DNA from: Burkholderia puraquae
GTDB lineage: Bacteria > Pseudomonadota > Gammaproteobacteria > Burkholderiales > Burkholderiaceae
Direction: 5' to 3'
Length of the DNA: 64,000 nt
Assembly: GCF_002099195.1 (NCBI RefSeq)
Contig: NZ_NBYX01000015.1
Location: 62,001 to 126,000 of the forward strand
Of this stretch, positions 37,691 through 62,775 are shown in pieces (position 1 is the stretch's first letter; every line of letters starts with the position of its first letter). The position numbers and the translations under genes are program-made. A model generated the notes under the pieces. That model had not been told where the DNA came from, searched no databases, and saw only the letters and a list, made by a program, of their open reading frames with translations.

Positions 37691-38825
37691 AATTAAGTAA
37701 TCCTCTTCTTTTGATCGATCGACGCGACGGCGCCGTGCGAGCATGCGCACGTTGGTCGGAATCACGGGATGGCGGCGTACCGGCCGCGCGCTACGAAGGC
37801 GAGCGACGCGGAACGGATCGCTCAGCGCGGGATATCAGTCGGAATTGAGGCGGCCGCGCGGGAAGTGCCGGCGTAGAGAAGAAGCGATCCGGCCGACGTG
37901 ATCGGCACGTACGGCCCAACGGATCCGGATGCCCCGGTATTGAATGGCGAGTTCAAGCTTTCCCCGTTTCAGTCGCCGGATTGAGTCCGGCTGACTGTTT
38001 TCATTATTTGGATTGATAATACAAATGGTCTTCTGCAGCGGATATTACACTGAAATTACGAGGTTTTGCCATCCGCGAATCGCGTGACGGCGCGTGTCGT
38101 CGCGTGCAAACCTGACCGGATGCGCCGCGCGCACGGTCATCAGCCTGATGCCGTATTCATCGCCGGATCACACGGTTGCCCTGCTTGCCGTGATGCACAT
38201 AGGTCGCGTTAACACGCGCTCTCACCCGATTGCGGCGGGCGGCATGCCACGCGCGCGCTCCAATCCCTTGAAGTTTCGACGCTTGCTCGAGCAACTGCAG
38301 TTGCCATCCCGTGATGGGATTCACATGTCGATCGAACGGCTGCACTGGCCGGGCAAATGTCCGCCCGCCTTTCAAGGCAGGTAGCGTCACCTTCGCTCGG
38401 GTCGCCGCCGAAACGATCCGTCGGATTCTCGTTGCCAGCGCAGGCCCGAGCGATCCGACAGTCCGGCTGTCGCAACCTGCCGCGCCCATCGCCCATCGCC
38501 CAACGAGGCACCGGCAGCCCGTGGAACTACCAAGTTGCCGTAAAAAATGGTTTATGGTCAAATGACCATGTCAAATGATCTGCATGTTTGTTTCATCCCC
38601 AATTGGAAGTCACCGCTCGAGCGCGGACTTTCCCGGAGTGGGCAACATTTTGCGAAGGCTTCCGGGTGGCGCGGCAATTGGCGTACACCGGCCACTTGAA
38701 GTCAGGCGAAATCTTGGGAGATGGAGCAGGCGTACGCGTATTGCCGCCTGGGCAGTTTTCGCCTGCCGGCTGAACGCGCTTCGGTTGAAAAACAAGAATT
38801 TCTGGAGACGGTGCTCGTGGATGAA
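37691..38825. other. Long intergenic region between the zinc-ribbon operon and the ketone cluster
   Basis: About 1.1 kb with no convincing gene. The part near 37990-38060 is AT-rich and probably carries the promoter of the leftward zinc-ribbon operon. Overlapping frames at 38094-38561 on both strands match no family that I recognise. The 3' part holds the composite operator at 38554-38580 and the promoter of the rightward catabolic operon. Confidence 0.5.
38554..38580 (+). promoter_or_regulatory. Composite TetR-type operator A, before the first catabolic operon
   Basis: ATGGTCA-AA-TGACCAT is a perfect palindrome with 7-bp arms at 38554-38569. It is followed at a 13-bp step by a second, weaker copy (GTCAAATGATC). 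The same core and spacing recur at 46215, 59913, 60255 and 62762. It lies about 250 bp upstream of the aldehyde dehydrogenase gene. Confidence 0.7.
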
Positions 38826-40319
38826 ATGCACAGCAGGATGAACCAAGCGATTGACCCCTCGGCGCTACGCGCCCGGCTGCGAGACGGCGCCTTGCTGGAG
38901 ACGCGCGCGTGGCTTGCGTCGGGATGGGAGGCGGGCACGGATGGCCGTTCGTTTCCCGTAACGAATCCGGCCACGGGTGAAATCCTGGCCCGCGTGGCCA
39001 GCCTCGGCGCGGCAGAGGTGGAGCAAGCCATTGCATCGTCGGCGCTTGCACAACGAGGCTGGCAGAAACGAACCAGCCACGAGCGCGCGAAGATCTTGCG
39101 CGCGTGGTTCGACTTGATCATTGCGAATGCGGACGATCTCGCATTCATCATGACGTCGGAGCAGGGCAAGCCGCTGGCAGAGGCCCGCGGCGAAATCATG
39201 TATGCCGCATCTTTCGTGGAGTGGTTCGCCGAAGAAGCGAAGCGTGTCTACGGCGACGTCATTCCTCACCCGCAAGGCGACAAGCGCATCCTTGTCATTC
39301 GTCAGCCGATCGGCGTGTGTGCCGCGATCACGCCGTGGAATTTTCCTGCCGCGATGATCACGCGCAAGGTCGCGCCAGCACTGGCTGCGGGCTGTTCCAT
39401 CATCGTGCGCCCGGCAGACCTGACGCCGCTGACGGCGCTTGCGCTTGCCGTGCTGGCCGAGCGAGCCGGAATTCCGGCGGGTGTGCTTCAAGTAGTGTGC
39501 GGCCCGTCGCGCGAGATTGGCGCGGCCCTTACGGCCAGCCCGATTGTGCGCAAGCTTTCGTTTACCGGTTCGACCGAAGTCGGCCGCGTACTCATGAGCC
39601 AGTCGTCCGGAACGATCAAGCGGCTTTCTCTCGAGCTCGGCGGCAACGCCCCTTTCATCGTGTTCGACGATGCGGATCTCGACGCAGCGATCGAAGGCGC
39701 GATGGCGTCGAAGTACCGGAATAGCGGCCAGACCTGTGTTTGTGCCAATCGCTTTCTTGTCCAGGCAGGCATTTACGACCGCTTCGTCGACGCACTCGCG
39801 CGGCGAGTCCAGGCGCTCGAGGTGGGCAACGGACTGGAGCCCGGGGTGCAGCAGGGGCCGCTGATCCAGAAGTCCGCCTGTGACCACCTGAATCAGCTGA
39901 TTGACGATGCAGTAGGCAAGGGCGCACGAATCGTCACCGGCGGGAAAGGCCATCACCTAGGGGGCACGTTTTTCGAACCGACCGTGATTGCCGATGCGAC
40001 GCCGGCCATGCGTCTCGCGCGCGAGGAACTCTTCGGGCCCGTCGGCCCGGTGTTCCGCTTCGACGATGAGGCAGAGGCGATCGCGATGGCCAACGACACC
40101 GAGTACGGACTGGCCGCCTATCTCTATACACGCGACCACGGCCGCATCTGGCGTGTCGGCGAGGCACTCGAGTACGGCATGGTCGGCCTGAATACCGGCG
40201 TGATTTCCAACGAGGTCGCCCCGTTCGGCGGGGTAAAGCAATCGGGCCTTGGCCGTGAGGGTTCTCGTTATGGGATCGAGGAATACCTGGAAATCAAGTA
40301 CATGTGTACCCAGGTCTAA
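38826..40319 (+). CDS. Succinate-semialdehyde-dehydrogenase-like aldehyde dehydrogenase
   Basis: The enzyme is 497 residues from the ATG at 38826 (MHSRMNQAID); GTG at 38817 and ATG at 38841 are alternatives. Signatures are AAITPWNFP, the base Glu in LELGGNAPF (Glu270) and the nucleophile Cys in GQTCVCANRF (Cys304). It is a paralogue of the SSADH at 4075 and shares the GREGSRYG ending. As first gene of a five-gene operon with an alcohol dehydrogenase, monooxygenase, esterase and acyl-CoA ligase, it probably oxidises a semialdehyde or omega-oxo acid made from the ring-opened or cleaved product. Confidence 0.85.
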   Translation: MHSRMNQAIDPSALRARLRDGALLETRAWLASGWEAGTDGRSFPVTNPATGEILARVASLGAAEVEQAIASSALAQRGWQKRTSHERAKILRAWFDLIIANADDLAFIMTSEQGKPLAEARGEIMYAASFVEWFAEEAKRVYGDVIPHPQGDKRILVIRQPIGVCAAITPWNFPAAMITRKVAPALAAGCSIIVRPADLTPLTALALAVLAERAGIPAGVLQVVCGPSREIGAALTASPIVRKLSFTGSTEVGRVLMSQSSGTIKRLSLELGGNAPFIVFDDADLDAAIEGAMASKYRNSGQTCVCANRFLVQAGIYDRFVDALARRVQALEVGNGLEPGVQQGPLIQKSACDHLNQLIDDAVGKGARIVTGGKGHHLGGTFFEPTVIADATPAMRLAREELFGPVGPVFRFDDEAEAIAMANDTEYGLAAYLYTRDHGRIWRVGEALEYGMVGLNTGVISNEVAPFGGVKQSGLGREGSRYGIEEYLEIKYMCTQV

Positions 40320-40348
40320 CTGCCAACGTCTGCATCAAGGAAACGTCA

Positions 40349-41515
40349 ATGGAAATGTCCCCGCAGTCGATGCTCTTCGAAACTGTTCCGTCCATTCTCC
40401 AGGAATGGGGCTGTGTGCGCCGCCTGGGTCAGGTGATGGCGGCATGGACGGATCGCCGTCATGTCCTGATTGTTACCGACGCAGGGCTGCACAAGGCCGG
40501 CATGCTGGAGCCGGCGAAAGCGTCGTTGGCGGCCGAGGGATTCCGCGTGGCGGTTTTTGACGAGGTCGTGGCCGACCCGCCGGAGATCGTGGTCTCGCGC
40601 TGCGTCGAGTTCGCGCGCAGTGCCGAGGCAGACGTCGTCATCGGCCTGGGTGGCGGCTCGTCGATGGACATCGCAAAACTGGCTGCCGTGCTCACCGTCT
40701 CGCAGCAATCGCTCGCGGACATGTACGGAATCGGCAACGTTCAGGGGGCGCGCCTGCCATTGGTGCAGATCCCTACCACGGCGGGTACCGGGTCGGAAGT
40801 CACGAACATTTCAATCGTTTCGGTTAACGAAACAAACAAGATGGGGATCGTCGCCCGTCAACTGTATGCCGACCGGGTGATCCTGGACGCCGAACTGACG
40901 GTCGGTCTGCCGCGCAGCCATACCGCGGCAACAGGCATCGACGCGATGGTCCACGCGATCGAGGCCTATACCAGCAAGCACAAGAAGAACGCCATCTCCG
41001 ATGCCCTCGCTCGTGAGGCGCTGCGATTGCTGGTGAGCAACCTGATCCCGGCTTGCGAAAATGGCGAGGACCGGCGTGCACGAGAGGCAATGCTGCTGGG
41101 CGCCACGCTGGCGGGACAAGCCTTCGCCAATGCCCCGGTGGCTGCGGTCCATGCGCTGGCGTATCCGTTGGGTGGCCATTTCCATATCCCGCACGGCTTG
41201 TCCAACGCGTTGATGCTTGCACCCGTGCTGCGTTTCAACGCAGTGGCGGCCGCTGCGCAATATTCGGAACTGGCAGACGTCGTAGGCGCGGGTGGAAAAG
41301 GCGATGCCACCGAGCGTACGGCGGTGTTCATCGAATTCATGGACAACCTGATGGACCGGTCCGGCGCACCGCGTCGTCTCCGCGACGTTGGGGTCACGCA
41401 TTCGAGCCTGCCCACCCTGGCAGCAGATGCGATGAAGCAGCAACGCTTGCTGTTGAACAATCCCGTCGTCGTCACGGCTTCAGACGCATTGCGCCTGTAT
41501 GAACAGGCCTTTTGA
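40349..41515 (+). CDS. Iron-containing alcohol dehydrogenase
   Basis: The 388-residue family III alcohol dehydrogenase has the NAD loop GLGGGSSMDIAK (99-110), GTGSEVTNIS (147-156) and the metal ligands Asp198, His202, His268 and His282 (in IDAMVHAIEAY, AAVHALAYPLGG, IPHGLSN). AAGGAAA lies six bases before the ATG. It would oxidise a primary or secondary alcohol released by ester hydrolysis to an aldehyde or ketone. It is 29 bp downstream of the aldehyde dehydrogenase, a pairing seen in cyclohexanol-type pathways. Confidence 0.9.
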   Translation: MEMSPQSMLFETVPSILQEWGCVRRLGQVMAAWTDRRHVLIVTDAGLHKAGMLEPAKASLAAEGFRVAVFDEVVADPPEIVVSRCVEFARSAEADVVIGLGGGSSMDIAKLAAVLTVSQQSLADMYGIGNVQGARLPLVQIPTTAGTGSEVTNISIVSVNETNKMGIVARQLYADRVILDAELTVGLPRSHTAATGIDAMVHAIEAYTSKHKKNAISDALAREALRLLVSNLIPACENGEDRRAREAMLLGATLAGQAFANAPVAAVHALAYPLGGHFHIPHGLSNALMLAPVLRFNAVAAAAQYSELADVVGAGGKGDATERTAVFIEFMDNLMDRSGAPRRLRDVGVTHSSLPTLAADAMKQQRLLLNNPVVVTASDALRLYEQAF

Positions 41516-41567
41516 ACCGAGGCAGGCAAATCCGTAGTCGCAGTCACGTAAATATAGAGAGTGCACC

Positions 41568-43031
41568 GTGAACAATGTAGAAAGGATTGAGCACCACGAG
41601 GTCGTCATTCTGGGTGCAGGCTTCGGAGGCCTCGGAATGGCTGCCCGCATGAAAATCGCGGGCATCGACGACTTTGTCGTGCTGGAGAAGCGCCCCGATC
41701 TCGGTGGCGTCTGGCTGGACAATTCGTATCCCGGTGCAGCATGCGATACCGAATCGCACCTGTATTGCTACAGCTTCCACCCGCATTTGCGCGTCAGCGC
41801 CATGTATGCCGGCAGGAATGAACTGCTCAATTATCTGAAGTCGCTTGCCACGCGGTTCGCGCTGACAGAACACCTGCGGTTCAACTGCGAGATCCGCAGT
41901 GCCGAGTGGGACGCAGGTGCAAGCCTCTGGCGGTTCGAGCTCAACGACGGTTCGCGGTTGACCGCTCGCTTCTTCGTGCCGGCGTGGGGCCAACTGAACC
42001 GCCCGATGATTCCGCCGGTGCGCGGCCTGACGAGTTTCAAGGGAGACTATTTCCACTCGGCAGCGTGGCGTCATGATGTGGACCTGGGCGGCAAGCGTGT
42101 GGCAAGCATCGGAAACGCGGCAAGCGCCGTGCAGTATGTGCCGGCCATCGCGCCGAAGGTCGCGCACCTTACGGTGTTCCAGCGAAGCGCAAACTGGATC
42201 ATGCCGCGCAATCAGATCGTCTTCCCGATCGAGCAGCTCGATGCGTACGAGCGTGAGCCTCATCTTTTCGAAGAAAGCCGGAAATCGCTGCACGCTTTCC
42301 GTGAAGCGGGGTTCGAGCGTACACGGATGGGTTCCAATGCGCAGACGGAGGGCAAGAGCCTGGCGTTGGCGCATCTGCATCGCCAGGTGTCCGATCCGGT
42401 GCTCCGCGAGCAACTGACGCCGGACTATGAATACGCGTGCAAGCGGATCCTGCGATCCGACGACTACTATCCGGCGCTCATGCGCGACAACGTCGCGCTG
42501 GAAACGGCGGGCGTAGAGGCGTTCGTCGAGGACGGTATCGTGACCCGGGACGGCCGTGTTCTTCCGTTCGACGTGATCGTATTCGGAACGGGATTCGAGA
42601 GTCAGGCATTCCAGGGCAGCCTGCAGGTTCGCGGGACGGACGGCACGTTGGCACAGGCATGGGCAGACGGCCCGGAAGCCTACCTGGGCATGACCGTGCC
42701 GGGCTTTCCGAACATGTTCATGTTGTATGGGCCGAACACGAACCTGAACCACAACTCCATCGTTTCGATGCTCGAGATCCAGCAGAACTACATCATCGAC
42801 GCGATCGGTGGCATGGCTGCGGCTGGCGTGAAGGCGGTGGACGTCGACAGGGCCGTGTTTGACGAATACAACGGCAAGCTGCAGTCGGCGATGGCCGGTT
42901 CGGCGTTTTCGGCGGGCTGTTCGAGTTGGTACAAGAACGCGCAAGGCAAGGTGATCAACAACTGGCCCGGCACGGTGGACGAATACCGCGCGGCGACGCA
43001 ATGGGATCAAAGCGTGTTCGCCGCGATCTGA
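41568..43031 (+). CDS. Flavin monooxygenase, Baeyer-Villiger type (I)
   Basis: The 487-residue enzyme has the first Rossmann motif LGAGFGG (15-21), the type I Baeyer-Villiger fingerprint FKGDYFHSAAW (157-167, pattern FxGxxxHxxxW) and a second nucleotide motif IGNAASA. It would insert one oxygen next to a carbonyl, using FAD and NADPH, to make an ester or lactone. The start is GTG with GAGAG upstream. It is followed after six bases by an esterase gene, the usual partner that opens the ester. It is only distantly related to the second monooxygenase at 46293. Confidence 0.88.
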   Translation: MNNVERIEHHEVVILGAGFGGLGMAARMKIAGIDDFVVLEKRPDLGGVWLDNSYPGAACDTESHLYCYSFHPHLRVSAMYAGRNELLNYLKSLATRFALTEHLRFNCEIRSAEWDAGASLWRFELNDGSRLTARFFVPAWGQLNRPMIPPVRGLTSFKGDYFHSAAWRHDVDLGGKRVASIGNAASAVQYVPAIAPKVAHLTVFQRSANWIMPRNQIVFPIEQLDAYEREPHLFEESRKSLHAFREAGFERTRMGSNAQTEGKSLALAHLHRQVSDPVLREQLTPDYEYACKRILRSDDYYPALMRDNVALETAGVEAFVEDGIVTRDGRVLPFDVIVFGTGFESQAFQGSLQVRGTDGTLAQAWADGPEAYLGMTVPGFPNMFMLYGPNTNLNHNSIVSMLEIQQNYIIDAIGGMAAAGVKAVDVDRAVFDEYNGKLQSAMAGSAFSAGCSSWYKNAQGKVINNWPGTVDEYRAATQWDQSVFAAI

Positions 43032-43037
43032 GCGGGG

Positions 43038-44027
43038 ATGCACATGACCTCAGTGCATTGGTTGCCGCTGACGGAAGTTGCCGAAGATGCCCGGGACGCC
43101 GTTCGGGCGTTCCGCGAGCTGGGCGGGCGGCACTACGGCAGCTTTTCCGTCGACCAGTCGCGCGTGAACTTCGTGCGTGCCTGTGAATTGAACGGCATCA
43201 CGGGCAACGAGGCCGTTGCCCATGACGACATAGCGGTTCCCGTAGCGGACGGCAGCATTCGGGTACGGCTCTATCGGCCGCCCGGCGGGGATCGCGTCGA
43301 GGGCAAACCACTGGTCGTCTTCATTCACGGCGGCGGATGGGTGATCGGGAGCGTGGACACGCATGACGGCATCTGCCGTCATCTCGCACGGCATGGCGGC
43401 TGTGCTGTCGCTTCGGTGGAGTACCGGCTATCGCCGGAGCACCGGTGGCCGGGCCCGCTCGAAGACTGCGAGCGGGCACTGGGCTACCTGATCGCCCACG
43501 CGCCTGCGCTCTCCATCGACGCGTCTCGCGTGATCCTGGCGGGTGACAGCGCTGGCGGCAACATGGCGACCATCATCGCCAATGCGGAATCGGCAGCGGG
43601 TTCCGCGATCATCGGGCAGATCCTGTTTTATCCGGTGACGGACCTGACGGCGTCGCTCCCGTCTTATCGGCGCATTCAAGGGGGATTTCCGCTTGTCGCC
43701 GAATCGATGCTTTGGTTCCGGGATCACTACGTGCCGGCCGGCACGCCATTCGATCTGCCACGCCTGTCCCCGCTGCTGCATGCGGAAGGCCGGCGGCAGC
43801 CGCCGATGTTCATGGCAACGGTGGGGCTGGATCCGCTATGCGACGAAGGCATTGCCTACGCGTCATGCGCGGCACGCGCCGGGAGCAAGGTCGAGCATCA
43901 CCATCTGCCCGGGCATCACCACGGCATCGTCACCGCGGCCCGCAATATCGCGGCAGCGAGATATCTGCTGGATCGTGCAGCTTCCTTTGTTCGGCGGCTT
44001 GCCGGAAAAGACGGTTTCGAGGTTTGA
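43038..44027 (+). CDS. HSL-type alpha/beta-hydrolase (esterase) I
   Basis: The 329-residue hydrolase has the oxyanion motif HGGG (97-100), the nucleophile Ser171 in GDSAGGN, and acid/base residues in GLDPLCDEG and HHHGIV. This is the hormone-sensitive-lipase family that cleaves short esters and lactones. Its start lies six bases after the monooxygenase stop (an ATG at 43044 is also possible), so the two are translationally linked. Likely job: hydrolysis of the ester made by monooxygenase I. Confidence 0.88.
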   Translation: MHMTSVHWLPLTEVAEDARDAVRAFRELGGRHYGSFSVDQSRVNFVRACELNGITGNEAVAHDDIAVPVADGSIRVRLYRPPGGDRVEGKPLVVFIHGGGWVIGSVDTHDGICRHLARHGGCAVASVEYRLSPEHRWPGPLEDCERALGYLIAHAPALSIDASRVILAGDSAGGNMATIIANAESAAGSAIIGQILFYPVTDLTASLPSYRRIQGGFPLVAESMLWFRDHYVPAGTPFDLPRLSPLLHAEGRRQPPMFMATVGLDPLCDEGIAYASCAARAGSKVEHHHLPGHHHGIVTAARNIAAARYLLDRAASFVRRLAGKDGFEV

Positions 44028-44194
44028 CGCTTTGACCTTCGAGCGGGCTGGCGCATCGACGTGTGCCGCGGCCGGCCTGCGACGAGTTCGCCGGGGATGA
44101 CGCTCGCGTGGTTCGAGGCGCCGCGGCTGGTTCACGAGCGCGATGAGGGGATGGGCGTCGCGCCACTATTCAAATGGGACAGAGGAGAGTGGGT

Positions 44195-45817
44195 ATGGAA
44201 AAGATCTGGATTGGTGCCTATCCGCCGGAGGTTCCGGCAGAGATTGATTCCAGCGCGTATCGAAACGTCAGTGCCTTGATTGAAGAAAGCTTCGGCAAGT
44301 TTCACGCGAATCCGGCGTTCGCGTGCGACGGAAAGCAGATCACGTATGGCGAGCTCGACGCCATGTCTCGATCGCTGGCCGCATGGCTGCAATCGCGGGG
44401 GCTCGAGCATGGTGCGCGCGTCGCCATCATGATGCCGAATGTGTTGCATTACCCGGTCTCGATTTGTGCAGTCCTGCGCGCCGGCTACGTAGTCGTCAAC
44501 GTCAACCCCCTGTATACGCCCCGCGAACTGCAACATCAGCTGAACGACAGCGGCGCGGAGGCGATCGTCATTCTCGACAGCTGCATTGCAACGCTGGACG
44601 CCGTCATCGTGCACACGCAGGTGAAGCATGTTCTGATTGCCACGCAGGACAATGCTTGCGCCACGGAGCAGACCTCGAGCCCGCATACGACATTTGACGA
44701 TGCGATTGCGGCGGGACATCGGGGCAAATTCGTACCGGCTACCCGGTCACCGGATGACGTCGCCTTTCTCCAATATACGGGGGGGACGACCGGGGTGTCG
44801 AAAGGCGCGACGCTGTTGCATCGGAATATCGTCGCGAACATATTGCAGATGGACGCCTGGTTCGAGCCCGCTCGCGGTTGGCGCCCTGACGTGACGCAGT
44901 TCGTCACGGTGGCGGCACTGCCGATCTATCACATCTTTGCGCTCAGCGTTTGCTGTCTGTTGACGATGCACATGGGCGGGCTTTGCGTGCTGGTTCCGAA
45001 TCCGCGTGACATCGGCGGGATGATCAAGTCGCTCGCCGGATACAAAGTCACGACCTTCCCGGGCGTGAACACGCTCTACAACGCGATGCTCCATCATCCC
45101 GAATTCTCGCGCCTCGATTTCTCCAATCTGCTGCTGGCCAACGGCGGCGGGATGGCCACGCAAGAAGCCGTCGCAAGGCGCTGGAAGGAGATGACCGGCG
45201 CGCCGATCATCGAAGGGTACGGGCTGTCCGAGACATCACCCTGCGTCACGACCAATCCCGTGGCGCGCGGCGAGTTCAATGGCACGGTTGGCCTGCCGTT
45301 GCCGTCCACCGAAATCTCGATCCGGGACGACGACGGCAAGGAATTGCCGCCTGGCGAAGCCGGAGAGCTGTGCATTCGCGGTCCGCAGGTGATGGCGGGT
45401 TACTGGCAGCGACCGGACGAGACCGCGAAGGTGATGACCGCAGACGGCTTCTTCAGGTCGGGTGACATTGCGTCGATCTCCGAGGATGGATTCGTGCGAA
45501 TCGTCGACCGCAAGAAGGACATGATTCTCGTGTCCGGTTTCAACGTCTACCCGAACGAGATCGAAGAGGTCGTTGCCAAACACCCTGGCGTATACGAGGT
45601 CGCGGCTATCGGCGTGCCCGACGAGCATTCCGGAGAGGCCGTCAAGCTGTTCGTGGTCAGGAAAGATCCCGAGCTGACGTTCGAAGACCTGATGGTGTTC
45701 TGTAAAGGCCAGCTGACGGGCTACAAGCGCCCGAAAAGCATCGAGTTTCGCGACAGCCTGCCCAAGAGCAACGTCGGGAAGATCCTTCGGCGCGAGTTGC
45801 GGGTGCCGAACGATTGA
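44195..45817 (+). CDS. Acyl-CoA synthetase (AMP-binding, FadD-like)
   Basis: The 540-residue adenylate-forming ligase has the P-loop YTGGTTGVSKGA, the A5 motif GYGLSETSP, SGDIASISEDG, DRKKDMILVSGFNVYPNEIE (split as DRKKDMILVSG and NVYPNEIE) and the catalytic Lys in KSNVGKILRREL. It would convert a carboxylic acid to its CoA thioester with ATP. GAGGAGAG lies about eight bases before the ATG at 44195. It is last in the first operon, so it would feed the acid product into beta-oxidation. Confidence 0.9.
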   Translation: MEKIWIGAYPPEVPAEIDSSAYRNVSALIEESFGKFHANPAFACDGKQITYGELDAMSRSLAAWLQSRGLEHGARVAIMMPNVLHYPVSICAVLRAGYVVVNVNPLYTPRELQHQLNDSGAEAIVILDSCIATLDAVIVHTQVKHVLIATQDNACATEQTSSPHTTFDDAIAAGHRGKFVPATRSPDDVAFLQYTGGTTGVSKGATLLHRNIVANILQMDAWFEPARGWRPDVTQFVTVAALPIYHIFALSVCCLLTMHMGGLCVLVPNPRDIGGMIKSLAGYKVTTFPGVNTLYNAMLHHPEFSRLDFSNLLLANGGGMATQEAVARRWKEMTGAPIIEGYGLSETSPCVTTNPVARGEFNGTVGLPLPSTEISIRDDDGKELPPGEAGELCIRGPQVMAGYWQRPDETAKVMTADGFFRSGDIASISEDGFVRIVDRKKDMILVSGFNVYPNEIEEVVAKHPGVYEVAAIGVPDEHSGEAVKLFVVRKDPELTFEDLMVFCKGQLTGYKRPKSIEFRDSLPKSNVGKILRRELRVPND

Positions 45818-46051
45818 CGGCATCGACAGGGGCGATGCCGGAAGGGTGAGCGGCCCGCATCGCACGTCTGCGAACCTGCACGGGAATGGCGAGACAGGAA
45901 AAGTCCGTCGCGCGCCGGCGCCTGGCGCGACGGTGCATCAGGGGCGCCGTGCGGCCGGCACAAGACCCTGCAATCCGCGCAGCCGATCATGTAATGGAAA
46001 CCCCTGATTTAAATTGTCCCTCGACTGCATAAGACTGGGAACCGTGTAACT

Positions 46052-46065
46052 TGGTCAATTGATCA
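46052..46065 (+). promoter_or_regulatory. TetR-type operator B
   Basis: TGGTCA-AT-TGATCA has the operator core, followed by TGT as in the TetR-gene copy, but the second partial copy is weak. It lies 228 bp upstream of monooxygenase II and 150 bp upstream of operator C. Confidence 0.55.
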
Positions 46066-46214: not shown

Positions 46215-46240
46215 TAGTCAAATGACCAAGTCGGGTGATC
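46215..46240 (+). promoter_or_regulatory. Composite TetR-type operator C, before monooxygenase II
   Basis: TAGTCA-AA-TGACCA at 46215-46228 is followed at the 13-bp step by GTCGGGTGATC, the same layout as operator A. It ends 52 bp upstream of the monooxygenase II start, a fitting place to block transcription. Confidence 0.65.
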
Positions 46241-47783: not shown

Positions 47784-47816
47784 TCCCTGAGCAACGTCCG
47801 ATTACAAGGTGATGTT

Positions 47817-48767: not shown

Positions 48768-48989
48768 TACGTTGGCGGTAGCGACCTGATTTCGCTGTTC
48801 GCCATTTCGTGGCCGCACGCGGTTCGATGGATGACCTCCAACGTTGCCGATGCGGCCGCGCAGTTCTGATGCATGGCGGAATGAAGCCGATTGCGCAATG
48901 GCTCGTTGGGGCCGTGACGCGAGTGGTGGAATCGATGCATCAGGTAGTTGCTTGTGAAGCGTTCAAGCACCTATCCAGGACACGGACCC

Positions 48990-50663: not shown

Positions 50664-51164
50664 AATGCATCAAGCGTGCAGGGTATGCGCGGCGACGTCC
50701 GCAGCCCGAAGGCCAGGGCTCGCCGCCGGTTGAGTCAGGGCGGGATGCTCCCGGGGTATTGCGAGCGTTCTCGCATCAAGCACGTGAGCGGCGCGGCCCG
50801 GTGACGCAGCCAGCCGCCGATCATGAAAGCATCGTCGCTCATTGGCGGGCAATGCGAGCAGGAGGCGAGACATGTCGCCACCGGCGGCTGAGCGCCAGGG
50901 TGGCGATCTAGGTGCGCGAATAGCGACCGGAGAAAGCCCCGTGCTTGCTACGCGGCAGCGCGCTGCAGCACCCGACGAACCATCGCTCGGCGTCCGGCCC
51001 AGGCCGGGTGCGGGAAACGTTCATCATCAGCCTCTCTCCCCGATGGCGTTCGGCGTGTGTCATGCCGAGCGCCCACTTCAATTCGTCGAGTCATGCCCGT
51101 GAACCTGGAACACTGTCCGGAAGGGATTCATGCGCTCGAAGGTCAACGACGCGGAAATGCCATC
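50664..51164. other. Intergenic region before the response-regulator gene
   Basis: About 500 bp with no supported gene. Short frames on both strands are GC shadows. The regulator's promoter should lie in the 3' part. Confidence 0.4.
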
Positions 51165-52937: not shown

Positions 52938-52953
52938 GGAATCCTCTTCTTCT

Positions 52954-55353: not shown

Positions 55354-55360
55354 ATAGACC

Positions 55361-57067
55361 TCAGAAATTTCGAGATGCGACGATTGCCACGAAGTCCCTG
55401 TCACGTAGCGGGTTGGCCAGAGGATTGGTCGGGCCCATGAAACGGGTGTAGTTCAATCCGACCTGCCAGTTCGCCGGGTTCTGTATGAAATTCACATACA
55501 GGTTCATCGCCGTCACGCCGCGCATGAACTGGGCATTCACGTTCGGCGTATTGCCAAAGAGGCCGTATCGAACGAATATCCCCGGATTGACCTGCCACCC
55601 GGGAATGACGGTGCCGTCGTAAACCCAGTTGAAATCGACGTCGATCCCGCCGGAGTATTTCGTTCCCTGAGCGCTGCCAGGCGAGTTGAGTGCGCCGGTC
55701 GCGAACAGGTCGTTGAATTCGTTCCCCCACAGAAGCGCACCGGGAGAAATCGGCGACCCGCCGTAGCTCTTGTGAAGCCCGGGATAAGCAATGATCACGG
55801 TCTCGGTCGTCAGGGTGGCGGTCTGGGCGCCGAGCAGCTTCAGGAATGCTCCGGAATTGCCTGGCTGGAGCGAGTAGAGGGTCGTCAGATGCCACTGGAA
55901 TCGCTTCTCGTCGACCCAGCAGTTCCCCCCTTGCGCGACGCATCCACTGGCCGGATTCAGCGGAACGGCATCTCGCGGGCGGTACGACAGTTCGGTACCG
56001 ATTGCCCAGTCGCCCACGGGGAAGTTGGCGCTGACACCGATCATGTGGCGGTCTTCCGGAAATCGGAAGACCGTCCCGCCCGTCGAACTCAGCGAGACTT
56101 GCGGGAACTTGTCGTGGTACGCGATCGTGTAGAAGCCGAGATTCAGGTCCGTTCCCGCGGGCTGGTAGCGAATGGAAAAGCCATACTGCCCGCCGTTTTT
56201 CGGATGAACCGTCGAGACGCCATACGCGTTGTTGCCTGGCCCGACGATCTGATTCGACCAATAGCTGCCAACCGGCGGAAGGTAATTCTGGTTCCAGTTG
56301 CTCTGGAAGTACCCTTCGACGTTCACGCCGTGACCCACGCCGGATGCGACACTCACGATCGGCGCGGGCAGGATGATCTCCTTGACCTGCGCCCCGGGCT
56401 GGGACGCGCGATTCACGTCGATCGCATTCGTCGCATTGACGCCGCCGGTTTCCCAGATGCTTTCGCCCCAGCTGACGACCTGATTACCCACACGGACGCG
56501 TGCAATCTGGTCGCCTACGTTGAACTGCTTGCTGACCCACAGGTCGAGCAAGCGCGGCTTGAAGCGGATGTTTTTCTCGGCATTGGACGGGAGCCCGCCG
56601 CTCAGGTTGGGCGACGGGTTGTAGAACAGGTCCTGTCCGCTGGTTGCGCCTGTCGTGCGGGTACCGGAGTAGTCGTATTGCCAGGTACCCCGTGCCATGA
56701 ACGTGAGCCCTTGAGACGGCATCTTCAGGACCAGCTCGTGGTTGCCCTTGAGATAGCTCGTGAAAGGATCTCCCTTGCCGTAGTTGATGTCGCCCTGATC
56801 GGAGAGGCCGCTCAATTGACCGAGTCGGCCGCCACCGGTCTGCGCACCGGTGGCCACGTTGTAGGTCGGCGATACGAGATTGCTGCTCGGCGAGGCAGTT
56901 CGAACGCCGACGCCCGCCGATATCGTCGAATCGAAACTGCCTTCAACATTCCCGATCGTGAAAGTGAAGGCGTGCGCGCTGCCGCACCCGAGGGCGACGA
57001 GCGCCGAGACCGCAGCGCGCACGAAAGCCACACTGGATCGGGGCTGAAACGAGGAGGTGGTAGCCAT
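55361..57067 (-). CDS. DUF1302 outer-membrane beta-barrel protein
   Basis: The 568-residue protein has a signal peptide (VRAAVSALVALGCGSAHAF) and then alternating amphipathic strands rich in Gly, Tyr and Trp, ending in Phe (IVASRNF) as outer-membrane barrels do. The family segment RVRVGNQVVSWGES is present. DUF1302 proteins accompany DUF1329 and MMPL genes in clusters for aromatic, terpenoid or steroid-like substrates and may be channels. Here it lies between DUF1329 and the transporter on the same strand, with a 16-bp gap upstream. Confidence 0.85.
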   Translation of the reverse strand: MATTSSFQPRSSVAFVRAAVSALVALGCGSAHAFTFTIGNVEGSFDSTISAGVGVRTASPSSNLVSPTYNVATGAQTGGGRLGQLSGLSDQGDINYGKGDPFTSYLKGNHELVLKMPSQGLTFMARGTWQYDYSGTRTTGATSGQDLFYNPSPNLSGGLPSNAEKNIRFKPRLLDLWVSKQFNVGDQIARVRVGNQVVSWGESIWETGGVNATNAIDVNRASQPGAQVKEIILPAPIVSVASGVGHGVNVEGYFQSNWNQNYLPPVGSYWSNQIVGPGNNAYGVSTVHPKNGGQYGFSIRYQPAGTDLNLGFYTIAYHDKFPQVSLSSTGGTVFRFPEDRHMIGVSANFPVGDWAIGTELSYRPRDAVPLNPASGCVAQGGNCWVDEKRFQWHLTTLYSLQPGNSGAFLKLLGAQTATLTTETVIIAYPGLHKSYGGSPISPGALLWGNEFNDLFATGALNSPGSAQGTKYSGGIDVDFNWVYDGTVIPGWQVNPGIFVRYGLFGNTPNVNAQFMRGVTAMNLYVNFIQNPANWQVGLNYTRFMGPTNPLANPLRDRDFVAIVASRNF

Positions 57068-57083
57068 TTTGTTTCGGCGCCTG

Positions 57084-58487
57084 TCAACGCTCGCTCAACG
57101 CACGGAGATTATCGGCGTTGTAGAAGCTGGGCTTGTAGTGTTGGTCCGCCGACGAGTCGACCGACCACTTCGCGTCCCGTCCGGCCGCGAGCATCGAACC
57201 GTCCACGAGGTACCGGCCGTCGACGAGGTTGTATTGAGCGAATGCGAGCGTGTCGCAGCTTCCCGTCTCATACACCGGAATGACGTAACCTTCGCGGACC
57301 TTCGAGATGTTGCCCTGCGCGTCGTAATCCACCGCGCCGAGGTAGCTCCAGCTGTCTTCGTCGATGTAGAACAGGCGCTTGGGCGCGGTATGGCGCATCC
57401 CCTGCTTGACCGCGGCTTCCACGACCCACACGCGATGGAGTTCGTAGCGACGCTTCGACGGGTTCACGAAGTCGGGGCCATAGGCATCTTCGAATTTGTC
57501 CGAGAAGTCGTACATGCCCAGGTCGTTATAGGTAACGATCATTTCCTTCTTGCCGAGCAACTTCCAGGAGAATCGGTCCGTCTGTCCGGAGAAGACCATT
57601 GCTTCATCGATGTTGTACTGGTTGTCGAATCCGATCTGGGGCGCATCGTACGCATACGACGGCATGCGACGGGTCCGGCGCTGCCCCGGGAAGTAGTAGA
57701 AGACTTCGGTCGGCTTGTCGGCGTAGTTCGTGAAGATCGCGGCCTGGCCGGCAATGGCCGCCGGGGATTTGTACGCGTAGTAAGCGTTGCCTTCGACCTG
57801 ATTGACCTTCGCGAACGTCGTGCCGGCCTTGTCACCCCACGGCTGGTAGATCCACGCGTCGGAAACGTTCTTGATCCAGTCGGACGCGCCCTTCCGCGGG
57901 GAGACGACGGTGATGATGTCGCGCATCTCGACGCCGGCGCCGCGGTAGTGCAGCTTCGCGTTCCACATCACTTCCGCGCCGGTCTTGGGCACAGGGAACG
58001 GGTAGCCGGGCAGGTGCGCATCGGTGAGTTCCGATCCGTCCGCCGACATCTTGGCGAAACCCGCGTTGTTCTTCGTGTTCTCCGCGACGAAATCGGGAAC
58101 GCCACACGTGCGCCGCGAAGGATAGACCGGCATCGTGAAGCCCTTCAGGTTCTTCAACAGCGCAATCTGGCCCGGGTTGAGCTTGTCCGCGTACTTGTCG
58201 ACATTACTGGCGTCGATCGTATACAGGGGCTTGTCGGACTTGTATTTGAAGAAATCCGCGCGGCGCTTGCCGTAAGCCCAGCCCGCCCCGACGTTGCCCA
58301 CCGGTGTCCAGGCAGGAATGCCGCTCGCGGTGCCGGCGACTTCGGCGCCCGATGGCGTATGAGACGAATCCGTACCTTCGGCCAGCGCGCCGGTCAAAGA
58401 CATCGCGACTGCGGAAGCGATGACGGACAATTTCGCTGCCGATCGGATGAGCGAAGCGGATTTCTTGAAAGAATGAGTCTTGACCAC
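57084..58487 (-). CDS. DUF1329 family exported protein
   Basis: The 467-residue protein starts at a GTG at 58487 (MVKTHSFKKSASLIRS), six bases after a perfect AAGGAG; this beats the ATG at 58583 because the signal peptide (AAKLSVIASAVAMSLTGALA) then begins properly. The rest is a beta-rich LolA/LolB-like fold with YDAPQIGFDNQYNIDEA and AEGTD at the mature start. DUF1329 proteins are periplasmic or outer-membrane and are likely lipophile carriers. It is the first gene of the leftward DUF1329-DUF1302-MMPL-YCF48 operon, so its promoter lies in 58488-58801. Confidence 0.87.
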   Translation of the reverse strand: MVKTHSFKKSASLIRSAAKLSVIASAVAMSLTGALAEGTDSSHTPSGAEVAGTASGIPAWTPVGNVGAGWAYGKRRADFFKYKSDKPLYTIDASNVDKYADKLNPGQIALLKNLKGFTMPVYPSRRTCGVPDFVAENTKNNAGFAKMSADGSELTDAHLPGYPFPVPKTGAEVMWNAKLHYRGAGVEMRDIITVVSPRKGASDWIKNVSDAWIYQPWGDKAGTTFAKVNQVEGNAYYAYKSPAAIAGQAAIFTNYADKPTEVFYYFPGQRRTRRMPSYAYDAPQIGFDNQYNIDEAMVFSGQTDRFSWKLLGKKEMIVTYNDLGMYDFSDKFEDAYGPDFVNPSKRRYELHRVWVVEAAVKQGMRHTAPKRLFYIDEDSWSYLGAVDYDAQGNISKVREGYVIPVYETGSCDTLAFAQYNLVDGRYLVDGSMLAAGRDAKWSVDSSADQHYKPSFYNADNLRALSER

Positions 58488-58801
58488 AGCAATCTCCTTG
58501 ACCTTGACCAGGTAACGTGCACCCGCCAAAGGGTTGTGCATAGGCGAATGCGGATGAACGTTCAGGAAACCCTGCCTGTTCATTAGCTATGCGAAATAAA
58601 TGAAGGTGCGCTTTTGCTTTGTTTTATTGAATCGGCGAACGCCAGGCCACCGTGACGACGTAGGCGTTCGTATTGTCCGGCTCCCTGGTGGAGGGCCGGA
58701 CGGTTGGTTGATGCATACAGCTATCGGTCGCCCACCCAAGCCGAATGCGACGGGTTCGACCGGGTCGGCTCCGTACGCGCCACTTTCGAGTGGCCTCCGG
58801 C
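58488..58801. other. Promoter region of the DUF1329 operon
   Basis: About 314 bp between the transaminase stop and the DUF1329 start, both on the minus strand. It must hold the promoter of the membrane operon. The AT-richer patch at 58585-58635 is a candidate. No copy of the TGGTCA-NN-TGACCA operator was found here. Confidence 0.45.
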
Positions 58802-59782
58802 TTATGCCGGGACCGACGAGAAGTATTCAGCCGGCTGAGCGTGCCATCCTGCCCAGCGCTTCTCCCAGTAGAGGTTGTGAATCTTCTCGGAGATCGGGCC
58901 GGGGCCGTTGCGGTTGCCGAGGGGCTGATCGTCGACGGCGCTGACGGGCATGATTCCGCCTGCGGACGAGGACGTGAAGGCTTCATCGGCTTCGCGCAGT
59001 TGGGTCGCGGTGTACTTGCCGATGTTCACCTTGATGCCGAGCTCGGCGGCGATATCGAAGACGCTCTGGCGCGTGATGCCCAGCAGGCAGCCTTCGGCGG
59101 GGGTGTGAAGCTCCCCGTTCTTGACGAAAAAGACGTTCGCGCCGGCCGCCTCGGTGAGGTTGTCGTTTTCATCGACGAGAACCGCCCAGTCCTTTTCCTG
59201 CGTCATCGCTTCGAACAGGGCGAGCTTCATGTCCATCCAGTGGAAGTTCTTGGCCGTGGGATCGACAGCCTTCGCGGAAATGCGGTTGTACCGCTTGCTG
59301 ACCAACAGGTTCGAGCCTCGCGTGCGGATCTCGTCGTCCGCCTGGAAGAAGAACGGCACGGCAAAGGCAAACATCGCGTTCTTCATTGCGCTGCGGTCGC
59401 GGCGGTCGACGCTCAGGGGGCCGCGGGTGACGCACCACCAGACGTAGGCATCCTTCAGGCCGGCGTTCCGGACGAGATTGTGGAGAATCTCCTTGACCTG
59501 GTCGCGATTGAACGGATTCTCGAGGAAGAACTTCGCCGCCGACTCTTCCATGCGCGTGAGGTGATCGTCGAGCCGGAAGAAGTTGCCGCGCGAGACGGTG
59601 ACGACGTCGTAGGCCGCGTCGGCATGCAGGAATCCTGCGTCGACGAGCGGGACGGTCGCTTCCGTGATGGGGACATATTTGCCGTCGCAGAAAGCACTGC
59701 CGGCTTCATAGCGGGGTTCGTGCGGAGCGCGAGCATGCAATGGGTTCTCATGCATGATCTGCTGTACTTGAATGATTGCCAT
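58802..59782 (-). CDS. Class-IV (fold IV) PLP aminotransferase, BCAT/(R)-amine-transaminase-like
   Basis: The 326-residue enzyme has the fold IV pattern: VPLVDAGFLHADAAYDVVTV near residue 44, RLDDHLTRM, the Schiff-base Lys in AKNFHWMDMKLALFEA, EAAGANVFFVKNG and GITRQSVFDIA. Compared with branched-chain aminotransferases, the first strand and the KNFHW segment look more like (R)-selective amine:pyruvate transaminases, as far as I can judge without alignment. It would interconvert a primary amine and a ketone or keto acid. It has its own promoter with operator D, and so belongs to the regulon. Confidence 0.83.
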   Translation of the reverse strand: MAIIQVQQIMHENPLHARAPHEPRYEAGSAFCDGKYVPITEATVPLVDAGFLHADAAYDVVTVSRGNFFRLDDHLTRMEESAAKFFLENPFNRDQVKEILHNLVRNAGLKDAYVWWCVTRGPLSVDRRDRSAMKNAMFAFAVPFFFQADDEIRTRGSNLLVSKRYNRISAKAVDPTAKNFHWMDMKLALFEAMTQEKDWAVLVDENDNLTEAAGANVFFVKNGELHTPAEGCLLGITRQSVFDIAAELGIKVNIGKYTATQLREADEAFTSSSAGGIMPVSAVDDQPLGNRNGPGPISEKIHNLYWEKRWAGWHAQPAEYFSSVPA

Positions 59783-59901: not shown

Positions 59902-59926
59902 GACACATGACTTGATCAAGTGACCG
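59902..59926 (-). promoter_or_regulatory. Composite TetR-type operator D, before the transaminase
   Basis: On the minus strand CGGTCA-CT-TGATCA is followed by AGTCATGTGTCA, the same core-plus-partial-copy layout as operator A, oriented with the transaminase gene. It begins about 120 bp upstream of that start. Confidence 0.62.
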
Positions 59927-60241
59927 TGTAGTGGAAAGTATTGCTCGAAAAATTCCTTGTCGATGAAGGTTAACCCTCTGTGATTCGCGCTTGGATACTC
60001 GAGCGGCGAGCAGACCTGTACGTGCCGCCCGGTGAGCGTCGAACGTTCGTGCCGGTAGACCGAACCGGTCCGCCAGAGAAAAGTGGCTTCAACGTAACGC
60101 GCGCTTCGCTGGAAGTCGCCTCGTGGTTTCGTCTTCGCCGTCGTCCGGCCGCACGCATTGCAGATATTTCTGCAGTTGCATGGCTGTTCGTTCCCTGAAG
60201 CGTCCAACTTTGAAGTGCCGGCGGCAATACTGATTATTACT

Positions 60242-60268
60242 GAGTCACACGACTTGGCCAAATGATCA
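60242..60268 (-). promoter_or_regulatory. Composite TetR-type operator E, before the aldehyde dehydrogenase
   Basis: On the minus strand TGATCA-TT-TGGCCA is followed by AGTCGTGTGACTC. It ends 82 bp upstream of the gene at 60350. A TAGTAT at 60279-60284 lies ten bases past the core, in the position of a -10 box, so binding would block the polymerase. Confidence 0.62.
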
Positions 60269-60349: not shown

Positions 60350-61810
60350 ATGCCGATCTTTGAAGCAGACCATCTTCGCAGGGCGTTCATCGGCGGCCGC
60401 TGGGTGGCGCCGGCGAACGGTGGCATTGAGCACGACATCATCGATCCGGCGACAGGCGAAGTCTCCGGCGTGTTGCTGTTCTCCGACGAAGCGGATGTGA
60501 ACCTGGCTGCGAAGGCGGCGAGCGACGCCTTCGCGGCATTCTCGAACACGCCTCTAGCCGAGCGGCTCGAGATGCTCGAGCGCGTGATCGGTGCATATAC
60601 CGAGCGGTTGCAGGATATGGCGGACGCAATTACGCTCGAGATGGGCGCACCGATGGACGCTATTTCTCGTCCGCTTCAGGCGGCGCTGGGGCTCTGGCAC
60701 CTCCATACGACCCTGGAAGTTGCAAAGCAGTATCCGTTCGAACGAACCCAGGGCACGTCGCGGATCGTGAAGGAGCCGGTGGGCGTGTGCGGGTTGATTA
60801 CGCCATGGAACTGGCCAATGAACCAGGTCATGTGCAAGGTTGCGCCGGCGCTGGTGGCGGGCTGCACGATCGTGTTGAAGCCCAGTCAGAATGCGCCGTA
60901 CTCGGCCATTGTTCTCGCCGAGATCCTTGAGAAGGCCGGTGTGCCTCCCGGCGTATTCAATCTCGTGCAGGGCTCGGGGCAGCGCCTGGGCAGAGCGATT
61001 GCTTCCAGCCCGTTGATCGACATGGTGTCGCTGACGGGTTCGACGAACGCTGGCGTGGAAGTCGCTCAGGCAGCGGCGACGACGATCAAGAGGGTGACGC
61101 TGGAACTGGGCGGAAAATCGGCGAACATCATTCTGGATAGCGAAAACTTTCAGCAGGGCGTCACGCATGGTGTGCTCCAGATGATGGCCAACTCCGGCCA
61201 GACATGCACCGCACCATCACGAATGCTGGTGCCGGCGCATCGTATCGAGGAGGCGGAACGGATTGCGGTCGCTGCATGCGGGCAGGTTGTCGTCGGCGAT
61301 CCGCGCGATCCCGGTACAACCATGGGGCCCATGGCGAACCAGCGCCAGCATCGAAAGGTGCAGGAAATGATCGGGGTTGGCCTCGAGGAGGGCGCGGTGC
61401 TCCTGTCGGGCGGGCTCGGCAATCCTCCCGGGCTTGAACGAGGCTACTACGTCAAGCCGACGATCTTCAGCCGCGTGAACAATCGCATGAAGATCGCAAC
61501 CGAGGAGATTTTCGGCCCGGTACTGGTGATCATCCCCTATCAGGATGAATCGGATGCCGTCGCCATCGCCAACGACTCGCCGTACGGATTGTCCGGCTAC
61601 GTCTATGGAGATTCGATCGAACAGGCGGAGCGTGTCGCAAGAAAATTGCGAACCGGGATGGTGCATTTGAACGGCGCGGCCGTTGATATCGCAGCACCGT
61701 TCGGCGGCTACAAGCAGTCCGGCAATGGACGCGAATGGGGCTACGCCGGCATCGAGGAGTTCCTGGAGACGAAGTCCATGTTCGGCGCGACGCCGGGCGC
61801 TGTCAGCTAG
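60350..61810 (+). CDS. NAD-dependent aldehyde dehydrogenase
   Basis: The 486-residue enzyme has LITPWNWPMNQ (149-159), base Glu252 in LELGGKSANI and nucleophile Cys286 in GQTCTAPSR. It is most like the gene at 22240 and not the two SSADH-type enzymes. It stands alone with its own operator and promoter, divergent from the transaminase. It probably handles an aldehyde formed in the ketone route. It converges with a TetR gene, with a hairpin between them. Confidence 0.87.
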   Translation: MPIFEADHLRRAFIGGRWVAPANGGIEHDIIDPATGEVSGVLLFSDEADVNLAAKAASDAFAAFSNTPLAERLEMLERVIGAYTERLQDMADAITLEMGAPMDAISRPLQAALGLWHLHTTLEVAKQYPFERTQGTSRIVKEPVGVCGLITPWNWPMNQVMCKVAPALVAGCTIVLKPSQNAPYSAIVLAEILEKAGVPPGVFNLVQGSGQRLGRAIASSPLIDMVSLTGSTNAGVEVAQAAATTIKRVTLELGGKSANIILDSENFQQGVTHGVLQMMANSGQTCTAPSRMLVPAHRIEEAERIAVAACGQVVVGDPRDPGTTMGPMANQRQHRKVQEMIGVGLEEGAVLLSGGLGNPPGLERGYYVKPTIFSRVNNRMKIATEEIFGPVLVIIPYQDESDAVAIANDSPYGLSGYVYGDSIEQAERVARKLRTGMVHLNGAAVDIAAPFGGYKQSGNGREWGYAGIEEFLETKSMFGATPGAVS

Positions 61811-61849: not shown

Positions 61850-61984
61850 TGCACGATGCCGTCGCGCATCGACGGGACAGTGACGAGATCCAGGTCTGCC
61901 ATGGAGCGGGGTGCTGGGCGAGCATGCATTGCATGCGCTCTGTCAGGGTGCCGGTTTTCGACGCAACGACGCGCGCATCGATTC

Positions 61985-62584
61985 TCAAACCCTTGCGGTC
62001 GAGTTCGAGAGGGTGGTGGCAAACGCCTCCAAAGCCGAACTCGCACTATCCAGGTTCGCCCTGAGCGTGCGAATATTCGGTTCGGCATGCCAGCTATTCA
62101 GCAATCCATCGATCAGGATGATGCTCATTCTGGCTACGGGCTCAATCATGTCGTGGTTGACTTGTGGCGCGCACTTGCCGAAGTAAGCGATCGCGCGCTC
62201 GACAGTCTGGACATAGGTTTTCAATGCGAAATCGGGGCGATGACGCTCGGCCCACTGGATCAGCTCGGACTGCACGCGGGCATACGACGGATGCTGCGCG
62301 AACCATTCGACTGTCTTGCGCAACTGCCATCCGGCGAGTTCGCCGAAAGACTGAAATTCGCGATCAGCCGGGGCGTTCGCCGCGAGAAGCTCGAACAGGG
62401 ATTCGTAGACTGCGTCGAACAGATCGTCTTTGGTATGGAATACATAATGAAGCGATGCCAGAGGGCAGCCTGCGGCTTGAGCGATTCGCCGCGTGGTGGC
62501 CCCTGCAACGCCGTGCGCGGCGATGACCTCAACGGCAGCGTCAACAAAATCTTGTCGCCGCAACGCAGCGCGAACTCTTGTCAT
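61985..62584 (-). CDS. TetR family repressor 1, candidate master regulator of the ketone cluster
   Basis: The 199-residue protein starts at 62584 (MTRVRAALRRQ) after GGAG; the frame continues upstream but across the operator, so the longer start is rejected. The HTH spans about 28-50 (GATTRRIAQAAGCPLASLHY split as GATTRRIAQAAG and CPLASLHY). The C-terminal domain, from about residue 80, contains DFALKTYVQTVERAIAY and IILIDGLLNSW. Operator F lies 44-57 bp upstream of its start, the same palindrome that precedes the catabolic operons; that makes it the best candidate for the repressor. Ligand unknown, perhaps a ketone or CoA ester. Confidence 0.87.
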   Translation of the reverse strand: MTRVRAALRRQDFVDAAVEVIAAHGVAGATTRRIAQAAGCPLASLHYVFHTKDDLFDAVYESLFELLAANAPADREFQSFGELAGWQLRKTVEWFAQHPSYARVQSELIQWAERHRPDFALKTYVQTVERAIAYFGKCAPQVNHDMIEPVARMSIILIDGLLNSWHAEPNIRTLRANLDSASSALEAFATTLSNSTARV

Positions 62585-62626
62585 TGGTAAACTCCGGTAC
62601 CCGAAAATACTCATCCGTCGTGATAC

Positions 62627-62642
62627 ATGGTCAAGTGACCAT
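62627..62642. promoter_or_regulatory. TetR-type operator F, before the TetR1 gene
   Basis: ATGGTCA-AG-TGACCAT is a perfect palindrome with 7-bp arms. It lies 43 bp upstream of the TetR1 start and is expected to give autoregulation. The flanking TGT on the minus strand matches operator B. Confidence 0.7.
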
Positions 62643-62749
62643 AACTCTCGTGAATTATGTCGGCTTCTTGAAAGTTTGTCCATGAACGGGCCGGGCCACT
62701 GGTGCCCTGCATATCCAGTTCGCTTGGTTGAGCCGACTCCGGGAAAGTT

Positions 62750-62775
62750 GATCTTATGACTTGATCAATTGATCG
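62750..62775 (-). promoter_or_regulatory. Composite TetR-type operator G
   Basis: On the minus strand CGATCA-AT-TGATCA is followed by AGTCATAAGATCA, the same core-and-second-copy layout. It lies 120 bp from operator F with no clear gene of its own on the plus side. Confidence 0.58.

Follow-up and report, generated by a model that had tools for sequence, protein, structure and literature searches.

What reads the palindromes that recur between the genes of a catabolic cluster in Burkholderia puraquae? The question arises in a 64,000-nucleotide stretch of its 8.1-Mb genome (C7:62001-126000, hereafter the window; positions past its end are given in continued window coordinates, with L001 position 2001 corresponding to window position 64001). 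The initial annotation had proposed that seven copies of one palindromic operator define a hidden regulon over 24 kb, with TetR1 or TetR2 as binder. All seven sites are present, far beyond chance expectation, and the idea of a hidden regulon held, but its extent did not: the cluster covers about 35 kb, extends beyond the window end by about 9 kb and contains 13 operators. Likewise, the operator is palindromic as described, but its unit is usually a double palindrome with a 13-bp offset rather than a single palindrome. We infer, rather than observe, that these sites are the operators of a dedicated TetR regulon, in which TetR1 and TetR2 would repress as side-by-side dimers on shared operators and be released by ligands, and we assign this reading a probability of roughly 0.8.

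The core TGRTCANNTGRYCA, which had been listed for all seven positions, occurs exactly on at least one strand at four of them (38555, 46052, 60255 and 62628), whereas the copies at 46215, 59913 and 62762 each deviate by one mismatch. The perfect 7-bp arms, ATGGTCA(N2)TGACCAT, do start at 38554 and 62627, the 14-bp core beginning one base later. With up to one mismatch, the window contains 14 strand-matches at seven places, compared to 1.23 (standard deviation 1.25, maximum 5) in shuffled windows. Throughout the 8.1 Mb, the exact core was found at nine places on at least one strand. Six of these lie in C7:100.5-126.5 kb, namely the four listed above and two just beyond the window end, and three lie elsewhere. 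The composite pattern with up to one mismatch matched at seven places in the cluster and at one other place in the genome (C2:432117), and the reversed-pattern control gave none. Equal motif density elsewhere in the genome had been set beforehand as the refuting outcome; run with consensus patterns, the comparison instead showed a concentration in the cluster. Shuffles and genome-wide counts together rule out a chance origin of the sites. All seven are intergenic, for 62628 only if TetR1 begins at the ATG at 62584 and not at the longer open reading frame start at 62683. We also saw no operator ahead of DUF1329 in the window genome, where the best composite score in the gap was 9/16.

A tandem operator with a 13-bp offset

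The consensus derived from 110 threshold-passing operators is RTCAnnTGAY-YNR-RTCAnnTGAY, which is itself a dyad. A full operator thus spans 23 bp and consists of two RTCAnnTGAY palindromes, the centre of one lying 13 bp from that of the other. A second palindrome scoring at least 6/8 is located exactly 13 bp away at 9/13 operators, compared to 0.6% of positions in a 98-kb background, and a partner of at least 5/8 accompanies 12/13 operators, compared to 4.4% of background positions. Palindrome pairs at 13 bp number eight in the cluster of the window genome, no other spacing between 6 and 40 occurring more than once. Across spacings of 6 to 60, the 11 Burkholderia clusters contain 93 pairs at 13 bp, no other distance exceeding 11. 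The 20 Pseudomonas-type loci, which include one labelled Pantoea and two of a single species, yielded 67 pairs at 13 bp and 13 at 26 bp, all remaining spacings in this range giving eight or fewer. The peak at 26 bp shows that some Pseudomonas operators, for example in L021, hold three palindromes in register. Two overlapping or abutting palindromes at a fixed spacing are the arrangement of two-dimer operators of the DarR/QacR type.

Within the window, the composite operator before the AldDH1 operon, GTCAAATGACCATGTCAAATGAT (38557..38579, + strand), consists of palindromes scoring 8/8 and 7/8. It is kept in 10/10 genomes in which the aldehyde dehydrogenase gene AldDH1 could be placed; in the eleventh (G006), AldDH1 was not found and the operator precedes the alcohol dehydrogenase gene Fe-ADH. 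The second Baeyer-Villiger monooxygenase gene (BVMO2) is preceded by a distal operator, TGGTCAATTGATCA (46052..46065, + strand), with a tandem partner of only 4/8, and by a proximal composite operator (46217..46239, + strand), which lies 80 bp ahead of the mapped gene start in 11/11 genomes. The composite operators of the class IV aminotransferase gene TA4 (59902..59924, - strand) and of a second aldehyde dehydrogenase gene, AldDH2 (60244..60266, + strand), were likewise present in 11/11 genomes. Two further operators belong to TetR1, one in its leader (62617..62641, - strand; a strong palindrome at 62628-62641 with a weak 5/8 partner) and a distal composite one (62751..62775, - strand; 6/8 and 6/8). 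The six operators past the window end (64293, 64458, 70907, 71077, 73227 and 73424) precede the imine-reductase-like gene NADb2 (with a PhyH oxygenase gene behind it), the class III aminotransferase gene TA3 and a second PhyH gene (PhyH2). BVMO2, NADb2, TA3 and PhyH2 have two operators each. Where both exceeded the threshold, they are separated by 157-203 bp; in the window, the distance between the BVMO2 operators is 163 bp. Of each pair, the downstream member could act as a roadblock or looping partner; judged by eye, helical phasing between distal and proximal operators followed no clean rule.

Eleven Burkholderia genomes share orthologues of the genes from AldDH1 to PhyH2 in largely the same order, and the operators recur ahead of the same genes across these species. 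Deviations in gene content concern the acyl-CoA synthetase gene, which is displaced in four of the 11 and was not found in G048, and TA3, which is absent from G030 and G059 and split in two pieces in G057. At a fixed threshold, 107 composite sites were located outside mapped genes (98.5 kb, a tally that counts unmapped genes as outside) versus 10 inside (293.5 kb), and seven of these 10 represent one spot in DUF1302. Across the alignments at the window genome's 13 operators, in which genomes were kept whatever their score, pairwise mismatch was 0.081 in the half-sites, 0.203 in the flanks (30 bp on each side) and 0.353 in the inner bases. Earlier values of 0.074, 0.226 and 0.356 came from threshold-passing operators, a selection that favours low half-site mismatch. 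Half-sites that are kept while the inner bases vary are the pattern expected of a site that is read by a protein.

Promoter geometry and the TetR proteins

We scored putative -10 boxes around the operators with an approximate sigma70 matrix. In 7/13 operator classes a box starts 10-25 bp upstream of the operator, with mean scores of 11.4 for TetR1 proximal (CATAAT), 8.7 for TA4, 7.2 for AldDH2, 6.9 for BVMO2 distal (two genomes only), 6.4 for TetR1 distal and 6.1 for both NADb2 distal and PhyH2 distal. For all 13 classes together the score was 4.51, compared to -1.58 (standard deviation 0.83) for random anchors in the same upstream stretches, none of 2000 being as high. Predicted boxes in the window are located at 46030..46035 (+ strand, upstream BVMO2 promoter; TAAGAC here and TAGACT in most other genomes), 59935..59940 (- strand, TACTTT, TA4), 60232..60237 (+ strand, GATTAT, AldDH2) and 62654..62659 (- strand, CATAAT, TetR1, with a -35 element TGGACA at 62677-62682); the AldDH2 box was scored in 10/11 genomes and the other three in 11/11. 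Operators that cover the first bases of a transcript have the geometry of a repressor site, a position where activators seldom sit. A conserved element containing TGGAAA was also observed upstream of the distal operators of BVMO2 (window 45990-46035), NADb2 and TA3, with 11, 11 and 9 genomes aligned, respectively. It is possibly an activator site.

The candidate readers are encoded within the cluster. TetR1 (61985..62584, - strand, 199 amino acids) carries a TetR_N domain, and TetR2 (63138..63767, - strand, 209 amino acids) is its paralogue with 48% overall identity; both exceed the PF00440 cut-off of 24, with scores of 41.4 and 41.0, respectively. The AlphaFold2 model of TetR1 (mean predicted local distance difference test score 87.7) is all-helical and TetR-like, with nine helices of at least four residues. 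An assignment of TetR1 to BetI or RutR was rejected, as the NCBIfam cut-offs were missed (40.1 versus 201.3 and 33.8 versus 368). TetR2 is the sole close paralogue of TetR1 in its own genome, the other six matches being remote (E 1.3e-8 or weaker). In the reading-head columns the two proteins are 96% identical (one difference in 23), compared to 38% in the rest, and against a Pseudomonas TetR the values are 83% and 35-37%. Near-identical reading heads combined with diverged sensor halves make it probable that the two proteins recognise the same operators while responding to two ligands. Under midpoint rooting, a 27-row tree places TetR1 and TetR2 together in a Burkholderiaceae group that is separate from the Pseudomonas proteins. 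These rows were found by peptide patterns that included the reading helix, and the invariance of this helix is therefore partly due to selection; the contrast between TetR1 and TetR2 is unaffected. The palindromes occur both in the TetR1 leader and beside Pseudomonas tetR genes.

The distribution of proteins and sites points in the same direction. The TetR1/TetR2 pair was detected in 11/65 Burkholderia genomes, both genes always together. The zero-mismatch composite pattern, for which the window genome was the sole source, matched in the same 11 genomes and in 0/54 others (reversed-pattern control 0; Fisher p 1e-12, uncorrected for kinship), and all matches but one, in G003:C7, lie in the cluster. 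In Pseudomonas, a TetR homologue (E up to 1e-40) was found in 11/298 genomes, as a single protein in ten of them and with two in one. The strict composite matched in 8/298 genomes, namely 7/11 with and 1/287 without TetR (uncorrected for kinship). Since most of the TetR-positive genomes combine the tandem operator with one TetR only, two different proteins are not needed for it. Of the 20 Pseudomonas-type loci, whose gene set differs in part from that of the Burkholderia cluster, 19 contain DUF1329 within the stretch covered, with an operator at the DUF1329 start in 19/19. Three of them (L013, L017 and L019) combine, among the cluster genes searched, TetR and the operator with a divergent DUF1329-DUF1302-MMPL(-YCF48) set alone. 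A family-wide search (349 genomes, E up to 1e-25) recovered TetR in its own genus only (7/349); Paraburkholderia relatives show that it is not confined to Burkholderia. Co-occurrence, the minimal Pseudomonas loci and the near-identical reading heads together support the proposal of the initial annotation that TetR1 or TetR2 reads the sites.

The regulon probably operates as follows. Two TetR dimers, one per palindrome, would lie next to each other across the promoter start region, and the bound dimers would block transcription until a ligand, either the substrate or a pathway intermediate, frees the operator. TetR1 and TetR2 would bind the same operators, each reporting its own ligand, and TetR1 would in addition repress its own gene.

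Weighing the repressor reading against its rivals

Several observations weigh against this repressor reading. For six operator classes the highest-scoring box falls outside -25 to -10: in AldDH1 and NADb2 proximal it coincides with the operator itself, and no box in the remaining four exceeds 5.2. TA3 distal lacks a convincing -10 box, and all these scores depend on the approximate matrix. Nine promoter-type classes scored 6.08 (random anchors -1.53, 0/2000 as high) and four leader-type classes (BVMO2_P, NADb2_P, TA3_P and PhyH2_P) only 0.97 (77/2000), a split that was made after the box positions per class had been seen. The BVMO2 distal operator (46054) has no clear tandem partner and three others have weak ones (5/8). 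No operator was detected in the 513 bp before TetR2 (best 9/16). Regarding co-occurrence, the 11 Burkholderia clusters appear to have been inherited as one unit, and their perfect match thus reflects co-inheritance and not 11 independent events. In Pseudomonas, four of the 11 TetR-positive genomes have no zero-mismatch site, while one TetR-negative genome (G610) has one. Moreover, the Pseudomonas pattern, which matches 12/16 searched genomes of the loci, was written after these loci had been seen, and at least four of the 11 TetR-positive genomes (G364, G365, G369 and G376) belong to them.

A narrower version of the same idea, compatible with it, is that only one of the two TetR proteins reads the operators and the other has a site of its own or acts without DNA. 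The single TetR that serves the same operator in 10/11 TetR-positive Pseudomonas genomes and the lack of an operator just before TetR2 would fit this version, but the retention of both genes in 11/11 genomes and the single difference in 23 reading-head columns of proteins that are 38% alike elsewhere make us regard it as unlikely. The TetR proteins might also bind the sites and activate, or act as dual regulators. In favour of this view, 6/13 operator classes are not placed just after a predicted -10 box, several predicted promoters are weak by matrix, and the TGGAAA-containing element upstream of three distal operators suggests an extra factor. Against it, in seven classes the operator begins 10-25 bp downstream of a -10 box, over the transcription start, and one operator lies within the leader of TetR1 itself; we therefore consider activation or dual regulation improbable.

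Another regulator could read the sites, for example the orphan OmpR-type response regulator encoded at 51057-51854. Its gene belongs to each of the 11 Burkholderia clusters examined, and no partner kinase was noticed alongside, though none was searched for. However, tblastn revealed no relative in the 20 Pseudomonas-type loci, which keep the same operators beside a TetR gene, and for this reason it was dropped as first-choice binder. Nor is there an above-threshold operator before the response regulator gene in the window genome (best 11/16); one weak site (12/16) was seen in 1/11 genomes. We judge a reader other than the TetR proteins to be very improbable. Even less credit is due to the notion that a mobile or duplicated promoter repeat gave rise to the sites, which would then have no regulatory role. 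BVMO2 and NADb2 have a stretch of upstream sequence in common, and some promoters may thus stem from duplication, but between species the half-sites are conserved and the inner bases are more variable than the flanks, and the tandem recurs in Pseudomonas beside a partly different gene set.

Returning to repression by both TetR proteins, a further step may be considered, although we find it doubtful. After a duplication in Burkholderiaceae the reading head would have been kept while the ligand pockets diverged, so that each tandem could hold one dimer of either protein side by side and the whole regulon would open only when both ligands are present, as in an AND gate. The ligands might be, for instance, the amine substrate and its keto product, and the tandem of palindromes would then be older than the duplication.

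Cluster genes and relation to known systems

The first operon (38721..45817, + strand), inferred from strand and gaps, comprises AldDH1, Fe-ADH, a first BVMO, a first esterase and an acyl-CoA synthetase; gene starts are based on open reading frames, that of AldDH1 being uncertain. The second putative operon (46293..50609, + strand) consists of BVMO2, a second esterase and a GMC oxidoreductase. TA4, which resembles amine transaminases, and the DUF1329, DUF1302, MMPL transporter and YCF48-like genes behind it share one strand (51963..59782, - strand). Pfam matches to DUF1329, YCF48-type, MMPL and DUF1302 families fall at 51963-58583. Being downstream of TA4 and co-directional with it, the DUF1329 genes may be read from the TA4 operator. 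AldDH2 occupies 60350..61810 (+ strand), and TA3 lies past the window end (L001:7587-8855, corresponding to 69587-70855).

A BVMO together with an esterase, alcohol and aldehyde dehydrogenases and an acyl-CoA synthetase fits a route from ketone via ester to acyl-CoA. TA3 is 57% identical to FumI over 402 aligned columns (PDB 6hbs/6hbv), with 533 bits compared to 164 for the next solved relative. It is present in 9/11 TetR-positive Burkholderia genomes and, at 57%, also in one TetR-negative genome. FumI converts hydrolysed fumonisin B1 to its 2-keto form, a methyl ketone (PMC2933618). It is a guess, more probably wrong than right, that the substrate of the cluster is a long-chain 2-amino compound, as the likeness of TA3 to FumI hints.

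At the cluster end, a P450 fused to a flavodoxin/FAD/NAD reductase is encoded (1062 amino acids, L001:12120-15308). The off-cluster site in G003:C7 adjoins an orthologue of this P450 on another contig and lies about 165 bp before a short-chain dehydrogenase gene; no P450 orthologue was found in the cluster stretch of G003 itself. In a P. japonica genome, an off-cluster operator (L094:9630) lies about 200 bp before a pyrroloquinoline quinone (PQQ) alcohol dehydrogenase gene, a possible extra member of the regulon. The strict composite site of G610, a genome without TetR at E 1e-40, is located at L092:9162 near a PALP-type enzyme gene. TetR relatives with 44-45% identity occur on three P. aeruginosa plasmids of 437-518 kb, one of which, the 496-kb p12939-PER (L085), carries a Pseudomonas-type cluster with three composite sites, before DUF1329, TetR and BVMO.

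If the repressor reading is right, more than 20 genes of unknown purpose become one testable regulon with a defined switch, common to Burkholderia, Paraburkholderia and Pseudomonas and present with three operators on a P. aeruginosa megaplasmid. The ligand of this switch would reveal the substrate. The 13-bp rule eases the search for the regulon in other genomes, and candidate members outside the cluster, the PQQ alcohol dehydrogenase among them, have already come to light through it. Should both repressors share their operators, they would form a compact natural two-input switch that could be useful for biosensors.

Parts of this arrangement have precedents. DarR of mycobacteria and Rhodococcus, a TetR family protein, binds as two interacting dimers to overlapping palindromes with four half-sites and responds to cyclic adenine nucleotides (PMC10636190). 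The operator described here is similarly built from overlapping or abutting palindromes, with two dimers predicted, but while the DarR half-site is TxC/GxA in a 20-bp operator, here RTCAnnTGAY is repeated at a fixed 13-bp offset, with up to three palindromes in Pseudomonas. In Streptomyces avermitilis, the homologous TetR regulators AvaR1 and AvaR2 compete for the same operators and can heterodimerise (PMC5744401). TetR1 and TetR2 are likewise homologous, and the near-identity of their reading heads makes a comparable sharing probable; however, AvaR1 and AvaR2 answer to an autoregulator in antibiotic control, whereas TetR1 and TetR2 belong to a catabolic cluster with a tandem operator. The DUF1329-DUF1302-MMPL-YCF48 set resembles, as compared by description, the four-gene AmeABCD system of Castellaniella defragrans (a periplasmic DUF1329 protein, a photosystem-II-factor-like protein, an HAE3-type RND pump and an outer-membrane protein), which was proposed to export monoterpenes (PMC6394551). 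DUF1302 was matched to AmeA by role only, and the available part of that account of AmeABCD mentions no such operator. The likeness to FumI of Sphingopyxis concerns TA3 at 57%, the one gene compared. We found no account of this operator or regulon in the open-access literature, which is weak evidence of absence as subscription papers lay outside the search. Two-dimer TetR operators and paired TetR paralogues are thus known separately, and what appears to be new is the strict 13-bp register, together with 13 operators in one catabolic island and their conservation across genera.

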